In this document: positions 10,320 through 33,143 of the stretch, piece after piece
Layout of the letters: each line of letters begins with the position of its first letter
Position numbering within the stretch: the stretch's first letter is position 1
The notes under the pieces: generated by a model
What the model was told of the DNA's origin: nothing
Databases searched by the model: none
The model's input: only the letters and a program-made list of their open reading frames with translations
Made by a program: the position numbers and the translations under genes
DNA from: Euphorbia lathyris
Lineage: Eukaryota; Streptophyta; Magnoliopsida; Malpighiales; Euphorbiaceae
Direction of reading: 5' to 3'
NCBI RefSeq assembly: GCF_963576675.1
Contig: NC_088910.1
Location: 101,460,807 to 101,524,806, forward strand
DNA: 64,000 nucleotides

Positions 10320-10402
10320 TGAATACGATGGGAATGGAGCGCCGCCGCCTCCCTTAACCTACCTTAATCTCCCCCCGCCGCCGTCCGCCGCCTCACTCTC
10401 CG

Positions 10403-11680
10403 ATGGCGGAACCATACTTCTCCCCTCTGGATGAACACGTGGATATTCGAGTTCTCTTCAATCCAAAATACCGGGTGGCTCCTCCTCCGGCGTCCGCAAT
10501 CCCGAAGCCCGCTCCGACGAAAGCTTCATATTCCTCTGTTCTTGCAAAAAATTCGACTATGACCACAGAATCGGCGGCAACTGTCTCGGATTTTGGGGGT
10601 ATTCGATCGGTTAAGATCTCCCAAGCAGCCTATGATCGTCGTCTAGCCCTTTGCGAACACTCGCTTATTGGCCGCCTTATTCTCTCAAAAGGAGACGCCC
10701 CTAGAAAGGTTGGGGATTTGAAACAGGTACTGACATCTATTTGGGGACTTAAGGACCCTTGGAGATTGATCTCAATTGGCAGAGGCTTTTATCAGGTTAT
10801 TCTTCCCTCTATGGAAGCTAAGGCTTCGGCCCTCAGTAGAGGGATTATCAATGTCAAGCCGGGTACCTTCCGTCTTCAGCTATGGAAGGCGGATTTTGAT
10901 CCGTTTGCGGAAAAATCAACTCATGCAAAGGTTTGGACTCGTTTATATGCTTTACCCTGGGAATACTGGGATCCACAAATCTTATCTGACATTGCCCGCG
11001 GGTTAGGAGGGCTCATTCGCCTAGATAAAGCCACTCTGGAGGGAGACTTTGGTCACTACGCTAGGATGTTAGTAGACATTGATCTGGATTCTGAACTACC
11101 TACTACTCTGGGTATTGAGCGAGAAGGGAAACAATTCTGGATAGAGGTTGTTTACGAGAAGCTTCCCAACTTCTGTAAAATTTGTTCGAACATAGGGCAC
11201 TTGGCCTATGAATGCAAAAAAAACTTGAAGCCTGAGCCAAAATTGAAGTTTGTAGCTGATCAGCAAAAAATAAGGCCCTCTTCTCCCAAGCCTAGGGGAC
11301 AGCATAAGGAAATCGAAGAGGGGGCGGATAAAGCCTGGGTTGCGGTATCAGTTAGCACCAGTAAGGAGGTTCATGTCCCAATTGCGCAACTTGTGCACTC
11401 ATCACCAGATGAAGGGGATATGACAGACAGCCCGGTGGGGGCTGGAAAAGACCAGGATTTAGAGGACGAGGTGCTTGAGCGACCACTTTCTCCTGGCAAC
11501 TCAAATATTAGCAAGCTCAAGGATCCCGCCTTAAGCTCGAACAATAGCTGGGCAGACGAAATGGAGGATGAAAACCAGTCCTGGGAAACAGCGACATCTA
11601 ATAAAAAAGGTGGTCAGCGCACAAAGAGTCAGTCAACCCGGGTAAAGCGGGTCAGCAAACCCCCATTACGTTTCTCATGA
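10403..11680 (+). CDS. LINE ORF1: gag-like RNA-binding protein with DUF4283 and CCHC zinc knuckle
   Basis: The frame is uninterrupted for 425 residues. Residues about 75-240 match the DUF4283 type found in plant LINE ORF1 proteins (for example LCEHSLIGRLI and WTRLYALPWEYWDPQIL). A CCHC zinc knuckle follows with C258, C261, H266 and C271. The C-terminal 130 residues are acidic and Ser/Lys-rich and probably disordered. The protein is expected to coat LINE RNA and bring it to the target. The stop codon overlaps the ORF2 start as ATGA at 11677-11680, so ORF2 would be made by termination-reinitiation. It is intact here, in contrast to ORF2. Confidence 0.88.
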   Translation: MAEPYFSPLDEHVDIRVLFNPKYRVAPPPASAIPKPAPTKASYSSVLAKNSTMTTESAATVSDFGGIRSVKISQAAYDRRLALCEHSLIGRLILSKGDAPRKVGDLKQVLTSIWGLKDPWRLISIGRGFYQVILPSMEAKASALSRGIINVKPGTFRLQLWKADFDPFAEKSTHAKVWTRLYALPWEYWDPQILSDIARGLGGLIRLDKATLEGDFGHYARMLVDIDLDSELPTTLGIEREGKQFWIEVVYEKLPNFCKICSNIGHLAYECKKNLKPEPKLKFVADQQKIRPSSPKPRGQHKEIEEGADKAWVAVSVSTSKEVHVPIAQLVHSSPDEGDMTDSPVGAGKDQDLEDEVLERPLSPGNSNISKLKDPALSSNNSWADEMEDENQSWETATSNKKGGQRTKSQSTRVKRVSKPPLRFS

Positions 11681-14600
11681 AAGTTCTATTCTGGAACTGC
11701 AGGGGTATCTTCAATCCAGGTACCCAAAGCTATCTTTTTAGTTTATGTCAGAAACATAAACCGGATTTTTTGTGCATTGCAGAACCCATGTGTGATATAG
11801 ATACTATTAATCATAGATTTTGGGATAGATTGGGTATGACTTTCATTGCCTCAAATTTGCGAGAAAGAAAGACTCTTTGGCTTTTTAAGGCCAGCTCGGT
11901 TACTTATCACACCGACATTCACACTAGGCATGAACAGTTCATCCTCATTACTTGCCTTATTCAGAACAAGCTTCAGTTTCTTTGCTTTATCTATGGTAGT
12001 GTTTGGGCGAATAGAAGAATAACGCTTTTTGATGAGTTAAATCAGTTGCAGATCAGTCACCCGGGCATGTGGTTACTGGTGGGAGATTTCAATGCCATCC
12101 TAGGGGCGCATGAAAAAACAGGTAATCCTCCTCCTCCGCGGCCGTGTCGGGAGTTCAGGGGTTTCCTTGATGATGGGGAATGGAGGGAAGTGCAGACTTC
12201 CGGTTCCTTCTATACATGGACTAACGGCAGACAGGCTAGTGCCAGAGTAGACAGTAAGCTTGACAGAGCAGTGGTTTCGGAAGATTTTGCTGATTATTGG
12301 ACAGTGAACTGCACGGTCTTAACCCGTCATCAGTCAGATCATCATCCCTTGCTGATTCGATTTTATCAAAAGAATAACGGGAAAGCTCGCTTCCGTTTTC
12401 AGTCAATGTGGATCACTCATCCTACTCTCAGGGAAGTAATTAGTGAGTTTTGGAACGATATCCATCCAAATCTTGGCCCGATGCAGACATTGAGCTATAA
12501 ACTAAAGGGGCTGCGTGCGGTTCTTAGAGCTTGGAACAAGGAATGTTTTGGGCATCTTGATACTAACATTGCAAACAGTGAAGCCAAATTACAAGAGATT
12601 CAGCTTGCCATCTCGTCTGGGGGGTTCACTGCTGAGCTGCAGGCGCATGAATCTGAAGCTCACGCTACCTTGGACACGCATCTGTTACAAAAGGAGACTT
12701 ATCTCAAAGAGAAGAGTAGAGTTAATTGGTTGGCTTTGGGTGACCGGAACAGCAGGTTTTTCCACCGTATGGCCAATCAGATTAAATCCAGGGCTGGGAT
12801 TCAGGCCATGCTTATTGACGATAATATTTGCACGGATGAGGCTGAAATTGCTGATCATATTACAGCCTATTATGCACAGCTGTTTGCCAACCCGGTAGGG
12901 AGCCTGCCGGATCTGTCGAATATCAAAGAGGTTATTCCGAATTTAGCTACGCTGATATGAATCTGTTAGGGATTAAAGCTAGTTAATCAACTGTAGCGCA
13001 GCGGAATTGCGGTTTAAAATTTATTTCTAATCCCTTTAGTTTGATCTTTGTCTGTTAACTATTGATTGAATAAAACCTTTTGGGATCCGTTTAAGGATAT
13101 AAACATACCCGGACTGTCTCTTCTAGAGACGGCTGAAGAATCCACAAAGTAGTATGATCTCCGTAGTCAGGTGCACGAACAGCTATCGAGCCAGAACCGG
13201 TGCTAGCCGAAGAACAAAGAAGAACTGGAGAGATAATGAAATTTGCCAAACAAATTCCACTTTCTCAAAACATGTTTCTACCGCAATTTACTTTTGTGAT
13301 TTTTTCAATCTACATTTAGATGGTGGCCGAACATGTATACGGTTAATTTGATTGTTTTAGGTTTTAGGCTTTTATTATATATAGTGTAGTTATTCCTAAA
13401 CCTAATTGGTTTAGGGTTAATTGGTTAATTACAAAACTAATCTAATCCTAACATAATCACTTAAATAAATACCAATAGTATTTATTATATGCAATTAGTT
13501 ATAATTAGATTAAATTTAATTACCCCAATTAAATAAATAACACTAATTAATAAATTGACATATTAGTTTGATTAATTATTCACGAATGCAATTTCATTAA
13601 TTTACAAATTAATTAATTATATCCCGTAAACTAATTAACCAATTAAATACTCAACGCCTAAATCCATTAATCAATTACATTGATACAAAGTATCAATTAA
13701 TCAATTAATTAACCACCAATTAATTACCTTGACATTTTACTGTCAACCAATTAATTAATCTCATCTCTCCAGTGTATCGTTCTATAAATTCTAACTCAGA
13801 TGTTCAATGTGCACGATCCTATGGGACTGTCCTTAGCTAGCAGTGGGCTCACGGCCCACAGACAGTAAGTGGGTTCTAGCAAACCATTACTGCCCCTAAC
13901 CAATACAGCTATTTCAGCAGTCTAAAGATGCAGAGACCCTGTAGTTATCTCTTAACTTCTTTTACCATTTGATATCGATATTATAAACTAGAGGCATGGC
14001 GACTGTCATCCTCTCTGATGTTTATGATATTTCTTGATCTTAAGTAGATTGATGAAACAGATAAGTAAACTACTTATCAGGGTGTGGCCACACACTTATC
14101 AATCTCACTTATCAAGTGGCCTGTGATATCATCTCACTATTACATGAGTGGTAATTCCATCACTTCAATATCAATACCAATGTGTTCACATGTTCACCCA
14201 ATCATACCCGTATTTAGCATCCTGTTACTGACTTGTTAGGCGTATGTCAAAGTGAACCGGATCCCATATTGATATTATAATGAAATCTGGTCTGAAGACA
14301 GTTAGAGTTCTACTTAAGAAAACTAATGACACAACCACCATGTAGTTTTCTCGAGCGAATCGATCCAGTCACATGTATACAACATGTACCCATATTCACA
14401 ACTGACTTATCAAGTGCTATGGCTAGTATCAATTACTACCATACAGTCGTCGAATATACAAGTCTGTGGTCCTGATCATTCCCATGATAGAATAGACTTG
14501 GGATACGGTTTTACGATTATCAATCAATGGATTCTCTATTCATATTATAGCACAAGATATAAATGAACTAGATTAATGCCTTTATTAATGTGACACAAAT

Positions 14601-17468
14601 ACATATTATAAGAACCAATGCCTATGAACTAGGACACACCAACATTTGTCTCTAATCAGTCCGCCGTCGTATGCGGATATTAAAGAAACTGTGATGAACA
14701 TGGATGCTTCAAGCGCGCCAGGTCCAGATGGGTTCACTGGTATCTTCTTTCAAACATTCTGGGAGACGGTTGGCCCGGATGTCTGTCGCGTGGTACTCAA
14801 TTTTTCCACACTGGTTTTATCTCAACAGGGTTGAATTCGAGTATTATGGCTTTAATCCCGAAGTCGGACGGGGCCCTCAGAATTGATCAGTTCAGACCGA
14901 TTGTCATGAGTAACTTCGTTTTCAAGATTATCTCGAAGCTTCTGGCTGACAGGTTGTCTCAGGTGGCTAAAGAAATTGTTTCGCAGAACCAATTTGGCTT
15001 TATTAAGGGCCGCAGCATTCACCAATGCATCGCGGTTGCCTCGGAGGGCGTTAACTCCTTACAGAAAAAGTGTTTTGGTGGTAACTTGAGCATGAAAATT
15101 GACATTACCAAAGCTTTTGACACCATGGACTGGAACTTTCTCCTTGAAGTCCTGGATTCGTTTGGCTTCAACCTTCAGTTCAGAGATTGGATCCTCAACA
15201 TTTTATCTTCAGCCAGAATTTCGATCATGACACCGGCGGGGGTCTCTGGTTAATTTGGTTGTTCGCGTGGAGTGCGCCAAGGGGATCCCCTCTCCCCAAT
15301 CTTATTCAGCCTCACGGAAGACTACCTCAGTCGCCTCTTATCCAAGCGGTGCGACTCAGGCATGCTGGTTCCCGTCACTTATTCGGCCACATCTCACTTG
15401 CCTACCCATCTTCTGTACGCAGATGACATCCTTTTGTTCTGTAAAGTGACCGTTGCAAATGTCAGGCTCATTAAAGAAATTTTTGAGCATTACGGCACCC
15501 TGTCTGGGCAAAGGGTTAGTTGGAATAAATCTGAACTTTTTGTTGGTAAGCATATCACTCCGCGAAGAAGCGCGAGATTAGCTGAGATTTCTGGTATCCG
15601 GTTGGGGAGTTTACCATTCATGTATCTTGGCGTGCCACTGTTCTGCGGTGCCCCGAGGTTAGCTCACCTCAAGAATCTGGCGGACAAAACTGCCAATGTG
15701 TTTTCCAAGTGGAAGGGTAGTGCTCTCTCAATGGCGGGTCGGTTGTTGCTAATTAAAACTGTGGTTAGTAGCTCTCTTATTCACTCAATGATTATTTACA
15801 AATGGCCACGGACACTTCTGAAAGGGCTTACCAAAAAGATGAAGAACTTTATTTGGTCTGGCTCCACGGGTGACAGGAAATTAATCACCCCCTCTTGGGA
15901 CCTCTGCAACAAGCCTATGTCTGATGGGGGTCTGGGGTTGAAGAATCTAGACTTATTGAATTTAACCTTGACAGGTAAAATTGCATGGGGGAGTCCTCGC
16001 TGAATCTTCTTTATGCTTCAATCTCCTTCGCTCCAGATTTCTGAACCGTGCTGGTCTTACAAGGAAGATCTCGTTATCCTCAATTTGGAGTTCGATTAGG
16101 TTAGCCTATGATAAGCTAAGGCAACATTGCAAATGGTTTGTGGGATGCAATTCACGTCTTAATTTCTGGAATTCTGAATGGCTGAATCCGACGGTGGCGG
16201 ATAGACTCGGCTTAACCCACTCGGAGAGAGTTCAATGGGAAGAGGATATCCATCAGTTCTGTGTCCTTCATAATTGGCCTGACCTCCCAAGCCTACCCCC
16301 GGAGATCAGGTATGCGGTTCTATCCATCAGTATTAGTCGGGAAGCCGGCGACACCTGTGTTTGGAAACCTTCGGCAAATGGTCGGTTCTCGGTTAGCTTG
16401 TTTTATAAATGGCTGCAGCCTCCTCCGCGAACTCATCCTATCAGCGCCATTTGGAAGCTGCACATCCATTCATCTCATTCGATGGTCGCTTGGAGGGCTT
16501 TTCATCACAAAATTCCGATGCACAACGAGCTGCAAAGGAGGGGCGTTTATTTGGCGTCGTGTTGTGTTCTATGTTTGGCTAGTACGGAATCAACTGACCA
16601 TTTATTTGTTTCTTGTACTTTTGTGAAATGTCTCTGGCAGGCTATTGAAAGTCTCTTTGGTAGAAGGCTCCCCGAAACAAGCAACATTGGTAATCTGATT
16701 GTTCAGGCCTTGCATCTCAATTTCAGCTCTCAGCTTCGGGCCTTGTGGCAGTAGTCTATCGTTCATGTTATCTGGACGGTTTGGAAGATGAGAAACGCAG
16801 CTATTCATGACGGAACCCCTCCTTCGATCTCTTTGGCTCTCAGGTTCCTCTGGTCGCAGTTAAGGCAAGTAAACGGACTCAACAACGGTACAACGTGGAA
16901 TTCGGTAACTGAACTGTCAATCCTTGCAAACCTTTACATCACGCCTAGGTCCCATCGTGCTCCCAAAATCCTTCCAGTCAGATGGCAGCGGCCTCCTCTA
17001 GGCTGGACTAAAGCGAACACAGACGCGTCGGTGTCAAACGGCACTTCGGGCTATGGCGGGATTTTCAGGAACGCAGTAGGCCTCCCGATCGGAGCTTTCG
17101 CTGCTGCTTCTGATCTGCCGCTTGCACATCTGGCCGAGCTGAAAGCGGCAATGTAGGCTATCGTCTTCGCTAGGGACAACAGATTTAATCCGCTTTGGAT
17201 AGAAAGCGATTCAACCTATGTGGTAAGGCAGATCCGTCATCGTGTGAAGGAAGTCCCTTGGATCTTAAGAGAAGACTGTCTTGAGAATCTAAGGCAAATG
17301 CAAGTCGTAGTGTCCCATATCTTTCGTGAGGGCAATAAAGTTGCAGACTGTCTAGCCAATTTGGGAAGGGTCAGTCAAACGCTTCAATGGTGGCAAAATG
17401 CCCCTCCAGCTTGTTCAGAATTTATTTGTGAGAATGTTAACGACCGTACTGTTTATCGGTTTGTTTAG
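11677..17468 (+). pseudogene. LINE ORF2 (endonuclease, reverse transcriptase, RNase H), disrupted
   Basis: Segment 11677-12960 is the AP-type endonuclease with WNCRG near the start, GDFNA in the middle and SDHHPLL at the end of the domain, followed by the linker to the polymerase. The reverse transcriptase continues after the LTR insert: APGPDGF (from about 14719), ALIPKSDG, then FIKGRSIHQ, DITKAFDTMDW, RQGDPLSP and the catalytic YADD at 15416-15427. A zinc-binding domain follows (WRAFHHKIPMHNELQRRGV, then Cys/His residues), then RNase H with its acidic residues in NTDAS, AELKA, ESDST and the final EGNKVADCLA. Lesions are a frameshift and stop near 12950-12960, the 1.68-kb LTR insert, a frameshift near 14830, an in-frame stop at 15251-15253, a frameshift near 15980, and stops at 16752-16754 and 17154-17156. 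It cannot make a full protein. Confidence 0.9.
12964..14644 (-). mobile_element. Solo long LTR of a Copia retrotransposon
   Basis: Read on the minus strand it begins TGTTGGTGTGTCCTAG and ends CTTTAATCCCTAACA, giving TGTT...AACA termini. Length is 1681 bp. Near its 3' end it shares ATTCCGCTGC with the LTR at 40494-42562, and the two starts are alike (TGTTGG.. then GTGTCCTA). The long LTR with these ends suggests an Angela/BARE-like lineage (inference). The flanks do not show a 5-bp duplication: GAATC on the left, TTTGT on the right. No internal domain is present, so this is a solo LTR. The short frames within it are not genes. Confidence 0.8.
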
Positions 17469-28878: not shown

Positions 28879-29095
28879 GGAAAGATGGAAAGAACAAAAT
28901 GTGGAATACAGGATGGAAGAAGAGAATAAAAATCATCAATAAGAATTGTGGGTTACTAAACCTAGCCACTAATTCCCACCTCTAGCCCCTAGAATTGACC
29001 GAAATACCCTTTGGACTAAATTTCAAAAAATCCAAAACCTCTCAAGAACCCTAAACGTTTTTTGATCAAATCCGGACAACACATTGAGCCGAATC

Positions 29096-32000
29096 ATGGA
29101 TGGCGACAGAAGACGTAAAGGAAAAGATAAAGTGGTAAGATTCACCGCTTTATTTCGTTGAATTCGAGCTCGTAACGAATCTGTGTTGTTTTTTTTGGAA
29201 TTCGCCGGAATCGCAGGTCGGGCGTATGAGTATCACGCCCTCCCTGCGGTTCGGGCATATGAGCATCACGCCCTACCAATGGTGAGGGCGTGATAGCCAT
29301 ACGCCCGAACCGCAAGGAGAGCGTGATACTCATACGCCCGAACCGCAGGGAGGGCATGGTGATATCACGCCCGAACCATTGGCAGGGCGTGATGCTCATA
29401 CGCCCGAACAATGGTTCGGGCGTGATTCCCTTACGCCCACGTGGGTTTTTAAAATTTATATTATTTAAAATTTTATTAATTTTAGTTTAATTTATATTAT
29501 TTAAAATTTTAGTTTAATTTTAGTATAGTATTAGCATGATTTTTACAATTTAATTAATTTAGGGTAATTTTATAATTTTGGTATAAATTGATTAAAACTT
29601 TAGTATAATTTATTATAATTTTATAATTATAGTATATTTACAATTTTATTAATTTAGTATAATTTTTTTATGTAGACGGAGCGGCCTACTAGGGGTGGAA
29701 AATCCATCCCGTCATCTGCTCGTCGTCTAGATATGGACGACGAGGATGATACACCACGTCAAACGAGATTGCGTGGTGTAGATGTATCTAGTCGTAGGCT
29801 GAGAGGGGCTGCGACGGAGCAGTTGAGGAGGGGGCCGATTGCGGATCAGGCCGATATTCATGACGCAGAGGGGGCGACTGATTTTGATGACAGAGAGCCC
29901 AGTAGCGATTCTTTGCAGGACTACCTCGATGTGGCAGCCCGGGCAGTGCGACAGTCCGCTGTTGCACATGATCGCGAGGTTGAGGAGAGCGATGAGCAGC
30001 CGACCCCGGGGAGACAGCCGACCCAGCGCGTAGGAGGTCGTTTTGCGGGTACATGTATTTTTTAGTATTTTTTAGTATTTATAGTATAATTTAGTATTTT
30101 TTAGTATAATTTAGTATAATCTAGTATAATTGAGTATAATTTAGTATAATTGAGTATAATTGAGTATTTTTTAGTATAATTTAGTATTTTTTAGTATAAT
30201 TTAGTATTTATAGTATAATCTAGTATTTTTTAGTATTTTTGAGTATAATTGAGTATAATTGAGTATAATTGCGTATAATTGAGTATTTTTTAGTATAATT
30301 TAGTATTTTTTAGTATAATTTAGTATTTATAGTATAATCTAGTATTTTTTAGTATTTTTGAGTATAATTTAGTATTTTTAGTATAATTTAGTATTTTTAG
30401 TATAATTTTGTATAATCTAGTATAATTGAGTATAATTTAGTATAATTGAGTATTTTTTAGTATTTTTTAGTATAATTTAGTATTTTTTAGTATTTTTTAG
30501 TATAATTTAGTATTTATAGTATAATCTAGTATTTTTTAGTATTTTTAGTATAATTGAGTATAATTTAGTATAATTGAGTATAATTGAGTATTTTTTAGTA
30601 TAATTTAGTATTTTTTAGTATAATTTAGTATTTATAGTATAATCTAGTATTTTTTAGTATTTTTGAGTATAATTTAGTATTTTTAGTATAATTTAGTATA
30701 ATTTAGTATTTTTAGTATAATTTCGTATAATCTAGTATAATTGAGTATAATTGAGTATAATTGAGTATAATTTAGTATAATTGAGTATTTTTTAGTATAA
30801 TTTAGTATTTTTTAGTATAATTTAGTATAATCTAGTATAATTTTGTATAATTTTATAATTATCAGGGACAAGCAAACGTTCCAAAGCTAGTGAGGACGAG
30901 AGCTGGGTAGTTACTGGACCGGTTGCTGGTGGTCCCATTGATGGTTCCGTGATTCCTAGTTTTCTAGGACATGTTGCCTCACGGATGTTGGGAGGAGAGA
31001 TTCGGTCGTTTCTGACATGCTACAACAGATCAGCAGCATGCCGAGATTTGTGTCAGTGGTTTTTAGGTGCGTCACCCGAGGTAAGAATAATATAGTGTGT
31101 CAACATTTATTGTAATTCGTATTTTTAACTATAAACATACAAAACATTCTGTAATTTTATAATTTTATGTGTCATTTTACAGCTGAGGGAGATGATCGAG
31201 AGGACTGGTTTGTCCCACCTTCCACGTGCCATGTTCAGGAACCTCGACACTCCGCTATTGACTGCGTTCGTGGAGCGGTGGCAGCCCGATACGAACTCCT
31301 TCCATATGCCGTTCGGTGAGATGACTATCCAGCTGCATGATGTGTGGCACATTCTTCGGATCCCGATCGACGGTCAGATGGTGTCCGAGTCTCCCCCTGT
31401 TGACTCGCTTCATGCCATGTGCATGATGATGTTTGGGGTGAGTCAGGCTGAGCTTCTATTGCCGACTAGTCGTTTATGGTCAAGTGGAGGTGTATTTGTT
31501 GCGGCTGTACAGAGGCTACCGGGTGAGGGTAGGGATGACGCTACTCGGGCAGCGGCGTGGATGTGGCTTATGCTTGGATCCACTCTGTTTGTTGACAAGA
31601 GTGGAGATAGGATTAGGCCGGCCCATCTTCATGAGGTTTACAGCGGTGTCAGTGGGGCAGCTGGACTATCATGGGGGTCTGCCACATTAGCCATGTTGTA
31701 CCGGCAGCTGGGGATAGCGAGCAGAGGAGATTGCTCCGGTATATGCGGATGTTTGACCCTACTGCAGGCATGGATATATGAGTATTTTCCGGTTTTCCGG
31801 CCGCATAGAGGAGCTCACCTGATCCCAGCTGACCATGTCCGTGCACTGAGATGGGAGGTCGGGGTCCCAGGCAAGACGACCGCCCGACTAGATACCTTTC
31901 GGGGGCAGCTGGATCGTATGACGGCGGCAGAGGTATTTTATAAAATTCTAGAATTTATTTAATTATTATTTATAGTATATTATTTGTATAATTGAGTATT

Positions 32001-32631
32001 ACTTTTTTCCAGGTGACGTGGTTGCCTTATGGTCCTGTCGCTGATGATGATCGGCTTCGGGTGTCCTACGCCGGTTGGATACGGTGTAGAGACATCGTCG
32101 AGCCGTATATGCCCGACCGAGCGCTGCGACAGGTCGGATATACTCAGCCTATCCCAGCTGAGCGTATTAGACCTGATAAAGCAGTACGACCATGGAAGTC
32201 GTTATCGTACAAGCTCACGCATTCCTTAGTCACAGTTGAGGACACCTGGCGGAGATTTCCATCGGCTCGGGGCATCGATCGGAGGAGATGCCGACCAGTC
32301 GGATACGATCCCACTGCCTGTGATCCTGCTTATATGGATTGGTATATGCAGTATTCGCATCCCCATCTCCTTCATGCACCACAGGCTGGACCGGTACAGC
32401 ATTCTCGCGCCAACAGCGAATTGGTAAGTTTATTATTTTTTAATATTATTATTTTGTATTGGTTTATATGTGTTTAATTTTAAATATTTATTTATTGATT
32501 TTTTTTTGCAGTGGGTTAGCTGGTTGTGGCGTGTCACCCAACTAGCGGCTACCCACCGATCTGACGGGGATGTTCCACGCATTAAGAGGGAGATGGATGA
32601 GTTTATGGATGCGTGGCGTCGGGCGAACTAG
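29096..32631 (+). CDS. Plant mobile domain (PMD, MAIN-like) protein, six exons, apparently intact
   Basis: The model is 29096-29134, 29676-30048, 30866-31080, 31183-31932, 32013-32423 and 32512-32631. All introns are GT...AG, phases match at every junction, and the 1908 nt give 635 residues with no internal stop. Residues 1-150 are charged and probably disordered (RRRKGKDK, MDDEDD). The aminotransferase-like plant mobile domain spans about residues 155-590. Its signature is visible in exon 4: FVERWQPDTNSFHMPFGEMT, then DVWHILRIPIDG, then AAWMWLMLGSTLFVDKSG and LAMLYRQLG, with the C-terminal part in exon 5 (WLPYGPV and VGYTQPIP). Annotated relatives are MAIN/MAIL1 and 'phosphatase 7 long form homologs'; MAIN and MAIL1 act in the nucleus in gene silencing with the phosphatase PP7L. 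This copy lies inside a TIR element and is either its cargo or part of its mobility. The start codon is the first ATG before a good donor site; a shorter start inside exon 2 (29733) is possible. Confidence 0.85.
29220..29438. repeat. 33-bp array, 7 units, in intron 1 of the PMD gene
   Basis: Seven 21-nt modules start at 29220, 29253, 29286, 29319, 29352, 29385 and 29418, each separated by exactly 12 nt. A module begins GGGCGT (or close), ends ACGCCC, and has a 9-nt centre, so it is an imperfect palindrome. Modules 1, 2 and 5 read one way (centre ATGAGTATC type) and 3, 4, 6 and 7 the opposite way. Spacer 1 (TCCCTGCGGTTC) is the exact reverse complement of spacer 4. Bases 29219-29273 and 29286-29340 form a hairpin with 55-nt arms, about 6 mismatches, and a 12-nt loop. 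The array is GC-rich inside an AT-rich intron. Confidence 0.92.
30058..30857. repeat. AT array of about 10-bp units filling intron 2
   Basis: Nearly the whole intron is made of the units TAGTATAATT, GAGTATAATT, TAGTATTTTT and TAGTATTTAT. A higher-order pattern is visible: the phrase TAGTATTTATAGTATAAT recurs at 30073, 30202, 30321, 30508 and 30626, with gaps of 118-129 or 187. Degenerate forms of the unit are already present in intron 1 (29480-29660). The splice sites of the intron remain good (donor at 30049, acceptor at 30864-30865). Confidence 0.9.
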
Positions 32632-32834
32632 ATTATTTTTTTTTTATAACTTCATACATTTGAACACTTTTTGTTGTATATATTACGTTTATAAATGTTT
32701 ATGTTTATTAATGTTTATTTTAATTTTTATGTTTTTAAATTTTTTTTGTTAAGTACATTTAACGGACTATTTACGGGTTTAACGGCCTATATACGGGATA
32801 CATAACACATTTTTTTTTTGCTCTCTCGATACAC

Positions 32835-33020
32835 GGGCGTGTGAAGATCACGCCTTCCCGTGTGGCCGGGCGTGATAGCCCTACGCCTCACCGAGTGGTC
32901 GGGCGTGATACTCATACGTCCGACCACTCGGTGAAGCGTAGGGCTATCACGCCCGGCCACACGAAAAGGCGTGATCTTCACACGCCCCACCATGTGGTGA
33001 GGCGTGATGTCTATACGCCC
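32835..33020. repeat. 33-bp array, 6 units, just after the PMD stop codon
   Basis: Six 21-nt modules start at 32835, 32868, 32901, 32934, 32967 and 33000, with exact 12-nt spacers, the same architecture as the intron 1 array (ends GGGCGT and ACGCCC or close). Modules 1 and 4 run opposite to the others. Bases 32859-32906 and 32916-32963 form a hairpin with 48-nt arms, only 2 mismatches, and a 9-nt loop. The spacers contain CACCGAGTGGTC and its inverse. It lies 200 bp after the stop codon and 115 bp inside the right end of the element, so it may be in the 3' UTR or be a subterminal binding array. Confidence 0.92.
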
Positions 33021-33143
33021 TTGCATCGAGAGAGGAAAAAAAAAGTGATTTTTCCACCCCAAAACCTATAAAAGGGTAATTTCGTCCTTTCACGAGGCTA
33101 GAGGTGGGAAAATGGGGCTGGGTTTAACAACACCCTAAGAATT

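Follow-up and report, generated by a model that had tools for sequence, protein, structure and literature searches.

Paired subterminal arrays of a palindromic 33-bp unit in a family of Mutator-like transposons, some carrying PMD genes, in Euphorbia lathyris

The PMD element and its two arrays

The window, by which we mean the whole 64,000-nt stretch of Euphorbia lathyris DNA analysed here, contains a Mutator-like transposon (MULE) spanning 28948-33135. It has terminal inverted repeats (TIRs) of ~65 bp, is flanked by a target duplication of 8 bp and carries an intact PMD (plant mobile domain) gene of six exons. The target-site duplication, TAAGAATT, is an exact 8-bp repeat at both termini, with the left copy at 28940-28947 and the right copy, identical to it, at 33136-33143. 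The 5' TIR (28948-29012, + strand) starts with GTGGGTTACTAAAC and pairs with the 3' TIR (33071-33135, - strand), which ends with AACAACACCC; the two are 75-77% complementary over 56-61 nt, and the 5' terminus recurs in other genomic copies. According to our splice model, the PMD gene lies on the + strand and consists of exon 1 (29096-29134; 13 codons, the ATG being element position 149), exon 2 (29676-30048), exon 3 (30866-31080), exon 4 (31183-31932; supported also by Pfam and holding the core of the plant mobile domain), exon 5 (32013-32423) and exon 6 with the stop codon (32512-32631). The encoded protein matches PF10536 at 190.4 bits against the curated Pfam cut-off of 34.9; this was its sole Pfam match at 1e-3, no VANC-type protein being found, and sequence searches of solved structures at 1e-3 gave no match for either PMD or the transposase. 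Omega was 0.32-0.53 for exon 4 in nine of ten pairs (0.85 in the other) and 0.23-0.53 for exon 5 in nine of ten pairs (1.07 in the other). Intron 2 holds an array of ~80 copies, all in one direction, of a 10-bp unit (TTTAGTATAA / TTTAGTATTT; 30061-30853, + strand). The family's transposase ORFs had no match within 28948-33135, where the window copy encodes PMD only, and the element is best read as a putative non-autonomous, transposase-less partner.

Array A (29220-29438) comprises seven 21-bp modules with 12-nt spacers in PMD intron 1, while array B (32835-33020), which lies 3' of the PMD stop codon and within a long palindrome, has six modules in a 33-bp register. The initial annotation had described two arrays in exact 33-bp register, one in intron 1 and the other after the stop codon; all 13 modules were found where it had put them, starting at precisely 29220+33n (n=0-6) and 32835+33n (n=0-5), and the splice model together with Pfam bears out their position relative to the gene. 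When the window was searched for GGGCGT-N9-ACGCCC with at most 2 mismatches, 13 matches were obtained against 0.24 expected (maximum of 100 shuffles, 2), and all 13 fall within arrays A and B. As had also been noticed, the modules occur in both orientations (--+++++ in array A by whole-module match, with the right half of module 5 reversed, and -++-++ in array B) and the spacers are partly reverse complements of one another, those at 32889-32900 and 32922-32933 exactly so. Array A is itself in part an inverted copy of array B, at 72% over 92 nt, and array B forms a near-perfect palindrome with 72-nt arms that are 94% complementary, its symmetry being strong over 32835-32987 and weaker (70%) across 32808-33047.

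Each 33-bp unit holds two dyads, a strong one, GGGCGTGAT-nnn-CAYACGCCC, and a weaker one, NACC-nnnn-GGTN. One turn of the DNA helix takes 10.5 bp; 33 bp therefore equal 3.14 turns, and each unit is ~51 degrees off the previous one. Over seven sites this adds up to most of a turn, so the earlier suggestion that the period would align every site on a single face of the DNA fails on arithmetic. The arrays were also considered as coding repeats: a 33-bp period keeps frames open, but no Pfam match was obtained at 1e-3, and array A is excluded by its position inside an intron with GT-AG borders. For MAIN/MAIL1, an ACCCTA-type motif is known. As a lead only, the CACGCCC of the module is one base off the FHY3/FAR1 site CACGCGC given in the available part of PMC6000157.

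Distribution of the arrays within the family

The module scan proposed in the initial annotation, carried out on the host genome (1.02 Gb), yielded 4359 exact modules, and 0 for the reversed control. A gap of 12 nt between module arms occurred 2966 times (control 1), as against 97 for 11 nt (control 3) and 31 for 13 nt (control 50), and is thus 30 and 95 times as frequent as these. Four single sites found in viral contigs were taken as chance. All 20 exact-module clusters that the scan listed within the initial 12.03 Mb of contig C1 were then fetched. Modules in 33-bp register were present in 17 stretches from these clusters, with L028 having only two plus two, and clusters L023, L027 and L039 hold stray modules only. 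Seventeen elements were measured, leaving out L033 and L038 (arrays present, both ends not); the 5' end was not found in L021b and L022, which leaves 15 elements with both ends.

The 5' array starts 271-274 bp from the end in 10 of these 15 elements (242, 260, 262, 281 and 493 bp in the others). As for the 3' array, 110-115 bp separate its last module, taken as the one preceding a degenerate look-alike found at that terminus, from the 3' end of the element in 16 of 17 (49 bp in L028). Module-to-module steps are exactly 33 in 135 of 154 cases across the 17 elements, a total that includes five steps of 114-115 bp due to the degenerate look-alike; L028 gave no three-module chain and stands outside the 164 modules compared. 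Of the 15 elements, 10 have an exact target duplication of 8 bp (one of them poly-T) and 1 an exact one of 9 bp; in the remainder it is imperfect (7/8 bp in 3, 6/8 bp in 1). The 11 exact duplications lie within the range of about 8-10 bp of MULEs (PMC5225508); the PMD element of the window also has terminal inverted repeats, and the family transposase is encoded by sister elements. Array length varies from 3 to 7 units, and units are missing, shifted or irregular in L022, L024, L025, L026, L028, L029, L030 and L037; several within-array indels are not multiples of 33, others span one or two entire units (33 or 66 bp), and unit orientation is largely stable between elements. Copies lacking the arrays or spacing them irregularly, and a widespread satellite, had been named beforehand as grounds for doubt. 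In their strong form neither was encountered: other copies do have the arrays, for the most part in register, and the arrays adjoin transposon ends, a location that rules out a free satellite.

The arrays are not confined to PMD elements. Among the copies sampled, they were present in 11/11 PMD copies, with 56/56 steps of 33, and in 6/6 MULE transposase copies, with 27/28. Transposase coding sequence lies between the arrays in 4 of the 17 elements (L030, L034, L035 and L037), and both of those tested match the Pfam MULE domain PF10551 (L035, 1.6e-26; L030, 3.2e-24). The family has at least 91 transposase copies, and all of those scored share 94% identity or more. Pfam matched no DNA-binding domain within the transposase ORF, whose structure, when predicted by itself, came out at a pLDDT of 33.9, too low to be of use. 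The C-terminal ORF of the transposase elements, which we presume to be OTU-like, had no Pfam match even at E 5, so its name rests on motif likeness. Short derivatives of 0.75-1.06 kb keep both arrays without any whole gene: seven of the 8 have no PMD or transposase match and L024 has one PMD fragment, and in the five that were measured the arrays are 138-348 bp apart. L020a is a PMD remnant. The view of the initial annotation that the arrays belong to PMD is not borne out: they are present on transposase elements and on short elements lacking a whole gene, which rules out a PMD-only feature, and a PMD-specific target for the 33-bp arrays is not supported by the sequences compared. Whatever the cargo, the arrays occur as pairs close to the two termini, at mostly constant distances from them and with an unchanging register.

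Conservation and possible function of the arrays

Nine seven-module arrays, chosen for having seven modules in register, were compared in 36 pairs. Module arms differ at 90/3024 sites (3.0%) and the remaining array sites at 941/4860 (19.4%), while the intron just 3' of the array, compared in 28 pairs with L045 left out for having too little intron, differs at 566/5522 sites (10.2%) and contains 108 indels. The nine arrays align gap-free, keeping in mind that they were preselected for register, and the 252 bp beside the array on the 5' side likewise have few indels. Exchange of blocks between units, in register, was seen and accounts partly for the divergence of cores and spacers. Arms and register are therefore conserved while cores and spacers turn over, and of the two causes offered earlier for the strict spacing, selection or copying, our data support a constraint acting together with a copying process.

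We lean towards the reading that the arrays are subterminal, cis-acting dyad sites at the ends of a MULE family, bound most likely by its transposase; the earlier proposal of subterminal binding sites, judged on sequence, survives as the best model. Since PMD, transposase and short copies all carry them, the arrays are probably general docking sites needed for moving or protecting the element, and not PMD-special. A dimeric family-encoded protein, most likely the transposase, would line up on each array and bring both element ends together, and PMD and short elements, having no transposase, would borrow it through the shared ends. In-register unit exchange, by gene conversion or by template switching via inverted units, would refresh cores and spacers, and would leave the register intact, as near-palindromic symmetry and conserved arms are common to modules and spacers. 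Some observations weigh against the transposase, among them the failure of Pfam to match a DNA-binding domain in its ORF. Known plant MULE transposases are generally taken to bind the terminal inverted repeats rather than arrays that begin 110-270 bp inside the element. Family-wide arrays would fit any trans-acting factor, silencing or anti-silencing included; recent common descent may account for part of the constancy in distance, given the near-identity of the 91 transposase copies; and there are the irregular units in eight elements and the indels that break the 33-bp period.

Another reading, which we consider rather doubtful, is that the arrays would be anti-silencing targets, with the PMD protein binding them in trans across the family and keeping silent chromatin off, in the manner of VANC. 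Such a role for a MULE-captured PMD was suggested by Ikeda et al. (in the available part of PMC5418596), the omega values of exons 4 and 5 make the PMD coding sequence look selected, and CpGs are kept at 97% in the arms vs 75% elsewhere in the array (13 and 11 positions). CpG observed/expected is likewise 1.02-1.21 in four PMD elements vs 0.60-0.76 in their flanks; however, both coding sequence and age can influence CpG content, and transposase elements reach 0.92-1.00 with the flanks of L035 richer still at 1.10. Moreover, transposase and short elements have the arrays just as PMD elements do, a better VANC-like candidate is offered by the one-directional AGTAT array, which among the elements read is confined to those with PMD, and the available part of PMC7156037 does not settle whether PMD proteins bind DNA.

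It appears improbable that the arrays would act as nucleic-acid hairpins, either as cruciform DNA or, in intron 1 and the 3' region, as structured RNA. Array A is predicted to fold at -170.2 kcal/mol (z -16.7) and array B at -182.1 kcal/mol (z -21.5), but palindromic modules in both orientations yield strong folding for free. On the nine arrays, 95.2% of cells pair, and 15 cells changed on both sides vs 7.4 after shuffling (0/500 shuffles as high), although covariation is inflated by relatedness and in-element exchange and the RNAalifold covariation term is slightly unfavourable (+0.38). Spacers 1 and 4 are reverse-complementary at 10.3 of 12 positions within elements vs 9.0 between them (p 0.012, uncorrected, the largest difference of 30 comparisons), yet spacers 4 and 5, which are direct-repeat partners, score equally well (p 0.007), and the ten listed of 42 core comparisons all fail to pass 0.04. 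A neutral minisatellite, present by chance in the ancestral element and inherited by its copies, would explain the variable unit number, the whole-unit indels and the block exchange, but is very improbable in view of arms that differ far less than the adjoining intron, the genome-wide excess of the 12-nt gap, the largely stable orientation and the retention of both arrays by short derivatives.

A broader picture is conceivable, unlikely as we consider it: a two-component transposon society in which transposase elements would give movement and PMD elements a trans-acting anti-silencing protein, both recognising or protecting the family via the 33-bp arrays, with contact arms frozen and cores and spacers changed by unit exchange. 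If so, the changing cores and spacers would dodge siRNA matching, and PMD elements would themselves have added the AGTAT intron array. The role of transposon-borne PMD genes is a question raised by others and, in the part of their text available, left open. Here, PMD elements share precisely phased end arrays with transposase partners from a family of at least 91 such copies at no less than 94% identity. The shared arrays offer short, exact DNA probes with paired controls for testing PMD and transposase binding directly, and their frozen arms and fast spacers are a natural experiment in the survival of protein sites within otherwise turning-over sequence.

Relation to known transposon systems

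The comparisons that follow draw on the available parts of the papers cited. As in Galileo and other Foldback-type ends, multiple transposase sites, here candidates only, lie in tandem repeats of long ends; Galileo, however, belongs to the P-element superfamily and has a THAP-domain transposase, and the words palindrome and spacing are absent from the text of that paper (PMC3688188). Muta1 and other MULEs of Aedes aegypti have 8-9 bp target duplications, short-repeat arrays near both ends and many non-autonomous derivatives that keep the ends (PMC5225508). Muta1 has 9 repeats of 12 bp, separated by linkers of 3-4 bp and contained in a terminal repeat of 145 bp, whereas the arrays described here consist of 21-bp dyads in both orientations with a 33-bp period, stand apart from the terminal repeat, lie in an intron and 3' of a stop codon, and are shared with PMD cargo elements.

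VANDAL elements with their VANC proteins resemble the present family in having motif arrays in non-coding regions and introns, to which the 33-bp arrays and the AGTAT intron array correspond here, and in having a further protein alongside the transposase; in addition, the core of the intron 2 array, AGTAT, resembles the VANC21 motif YAGTATTAY (PMC5735166, PMC10398659), exact occurrences of which numbered 0 in four PMD elements. PMD (PF10536), however, is not VANC, and unlike the VANDAL motifs the 33-bp arrays are palindromic and present also on elements without PMD. MULE-encoded PMD was described by Ikeda et al. in 2017, who reported a rice MULE with PMD and PMD-transposase fusions in several grasses and Amborella (PMC5418596). 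Here too a MULE carries a PMD gene, but the gene stands alone, and the transposase is encoded by sister elements with common ends.

The window element and its counterparts in the genome

The thirteen modules listed in the initial annotation, seven in array A (29220-29438, in intron 1 of the PMD gene) and six in array B (32835-33020, past the stop codon), lie where it had placed them and keep a register of exactly 33 bp, while in shuffled sequence the window held a mean of 0.24 and never more than 2 module matches. The arrays belong to a Mutator-like (MULE) transposable element at 28948-33135, which has inverted repeats of ~65 bp at its ends and is bordered by an exact 8-bp target duplication, TAAGAATT. 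This element carries an intact gene (635 codons, six exons, GT-AG introns) whose protein has the plant mobile domain (PMD; PF10536, 6.7e-56) as its sole Pfam match at 1e-3, and comparison with the transposase ORFs of sister elements gave no match to the family's transposase. Keeping in mind that the pairs are non-independent and that some copies contain stops, omega among five PMD copies was 0.32-0.85 for exon 4 and 0.23-1.07 for exon 5 (in each case ≤0.53 in 9/10 pairs), and it was 0.30-0.70 for the transposase ORF (6 pairs). The mostly low values for the two PMD exons suggest that PMD was probably under selection in the lineage. Elsewhere in the window, an interrupted series of long ORFs at 10358-16754 resembles by eye a LINE retrotransposon, with a nucleic-acid-binding ORF, an endonuclease and a reverse transcriptase.

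The motif scan proposed in the initial annotation found the exact module (GGGCGT-N9-ACGCCC) 4359 times in the 1.02-Gb host assembly, against 0 for the reversed control. Counts of ACGCCC-Nk-GGGCGT were 97 at k=11 (control 3), 2966 at k=12 (control 1) and 31 at k=13 (control 50), some of the listed k=11 matches being of a different kind with A/T-rich middles. Retrieval of all 20 exact-module clusters listed for the initial 12.03 Mb of contig C1 yielded 17 stretches with 33-bp register (one, L028, with merely two plus two modules) and three with stray modules only; copy numbers are to be read as lower bounds. A different palindromic GGGCG/CGCCC array was noticed at G000:C1:1618500-1619050 and G000:C1:152350-152800, with units like GTTGGGCGAACGCCCAAC and the spacing ACGCCC-N10-GGGCGT, directly upstream of a TATA-like CTATAAAAG. 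Several such N10 sites, among the matches listed, are spaced 15-17 kb, as the LTRs of a long retrotransposon would be.

Sampling was also performed from the gene side, with 68 PMD candidates scored from at least 246 hits (11 sampled upstream) and 91 transposase copies scored, all ≥94% identical (6 sampled). The initial annotation had named copies with no arrays or with irregular spacing as what would refute its reading; instead, the array was present in 11/11 PMD copies, with 56/56 steps of 33 bp (two modules being visible in the cut sequence of L049), and in 6/6 transposase copies, with 27/28. At least seven PMD copies lie within ~236 kb at G000:C4:7567646-7803403, possibly a local amplification.

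Common ends and three kinds of cargo

Arrays were usually paired in the fetched C1 elements. When 17 elements, including that of the window, were oriented via their termini (5' GTGGGTTAC..., 3' ...AACAACACCC), the 5' array started 271-274 bp inside the 5' end in 10 of the 15 elements having both ends, the 3' array ended 110-115 bp short of the 3' end in 16/17, and 135/154 steps were exactly 33 bp. In the 5' array, two modules point one way and the others the opposite way, an order that recurs in PMD and transposase elements and in several short ones. Across its final 108 bp, the window element is 82-85% identical to four transposase elements (shuffle control, run on L035: mean 67%, maximum 79%), and its likeness to transposase elements is weaker at 5' 70-270 bp (z of 3.4 for L035 and 5.2 for L037). 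The final 21 bp of the window element (33115-33135), 115 bp past the last module of array B, fit the module pattern if up to 3 mismatches are allowed, and L024, L030, L034 and L035 show a similar look-alike 114-115 bp after their last module; this resemblance may be chance.

Behind these array-bearing ends lie a PMD gene (the window, L026, L029, L031 and L033, with a remnant in L020), a transposase (L030, L034, L035 and L037, of which the two tested both match Pfam MULE) or, in short elements, neither gene whole: 7/8 matched neither PMD nor transposase and L024 contained one PMD fragment, and the six with both ends are 0.75-1.06 kb long. Since a short first exon begins, where found, at element position 144-151 in PMD and transposase elements alike, and since the array apparently sits in intron 1 of the latter too, it seems that one gene body replaced the other behind a common 5' end. 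A 213-codon ORF 3' of the transposase (L030:1984-2622, minus strand; L035:7626-8264, plus strand) is open in all four elements; it is by eye like an OTU protease and has no Pfam match.

Constraint and exchange within the arrays

The consensus unit of 164 modules from 16 elements is GGGCGTGATnnnCAYACGCCC followed by NACCnnnnGGTN, with spacer self-complementarity of 2.93 of 6 pairs versus 1.60 when shuffled. Comparison of spacing against sequence between copies, also put forward in the initial annotation, gave a gap-free alignment of nine seven-module PMD arrays, a set whose selection favoured intact register (genome-wide gap counts are free of such bias), with differences at 3.0% of arm sites versus 19.4% of other array sites (36 pairs). 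In the intron directly after the array, compared in the 28 pairs that had sufficient sequence, 10.2% of sites differed and 5522 bp contained 108 indels (a looser alignment gave 6.7% differences, and the stricter figure was adopted). In four-by-region comparisons, arrays contained 2-4 indel events per comparison set; the sequence adjoining PMD arrays, both in intron 1 and in the 3' region, contained 16-17, but next to transposase arrays the contrast was weaker or absent (1 to 6 events). L031 and L040 share 235 bp of intron without a single difference, yet differ at 8/135 non-arm array sites, mostly through one swapped module core; L050 and L051 show no array excess (3.7% versus 3.6%). In the window, spacer 3 resembles a copy of spacer 4. 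Cumulatively, on these alignments the arms and register look to be under selection, with cores and spacers turning over, partly via in-register exchange between units.

Possible function of the arrays

Because array-bearing ends are common to the members, the shortest of which are mostly ends, the arrays would most simply be read as cis-acting parts of the element ends, for which the family transposase is a candidate binder. The main rival is that the PMD protein would bind the arrays, in the style of the anti-silencing VANC proteins of VANDAL elements. PMD elements carry in intron 2 a one-directional AGTAT array (10-bp unit; 30061-30853 in the window) whose core resembles the VANC21 motif YAGTATTAY; the exact motif was absent from the four PMD elements scanned. 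In four PMD elements the forward counts of AGTAT were 86, 49, 22 and 54 and the reverse counts 3, 2, 4 and 4; array length differs between PMD copies. In transposase elements AGTAT is low and roughly equal in both directions; neither they nor the short elements read showed such an array. The observed/expected CpG ratio of four PMD elements was 1.02-1.21, and that of their flanks 0.60-0.76.

Alternatively, the arrays might function as hairpins: RNA folding of arrays A and B is very strong, and two-sided changes in the nine-copy pairing number 15 versus 7.4 in shuffles. However, the consensus-fold covariation term is slightly unfavourable, the nine sequences are related, and exchange of inverted units would give an identical pattern of two-sided changes. 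Hairpins are taken as a likely route of unit exchange rather than as the function of the arrays.

In the open-access literature, we found no description of this array-bearing MULE family. Multiple transposase sites are demonstrated in the repeated ends of Galileo (PMC3688188), and subterminal repeats are known in the mosquito MULE Muta1 (PMC5225508).
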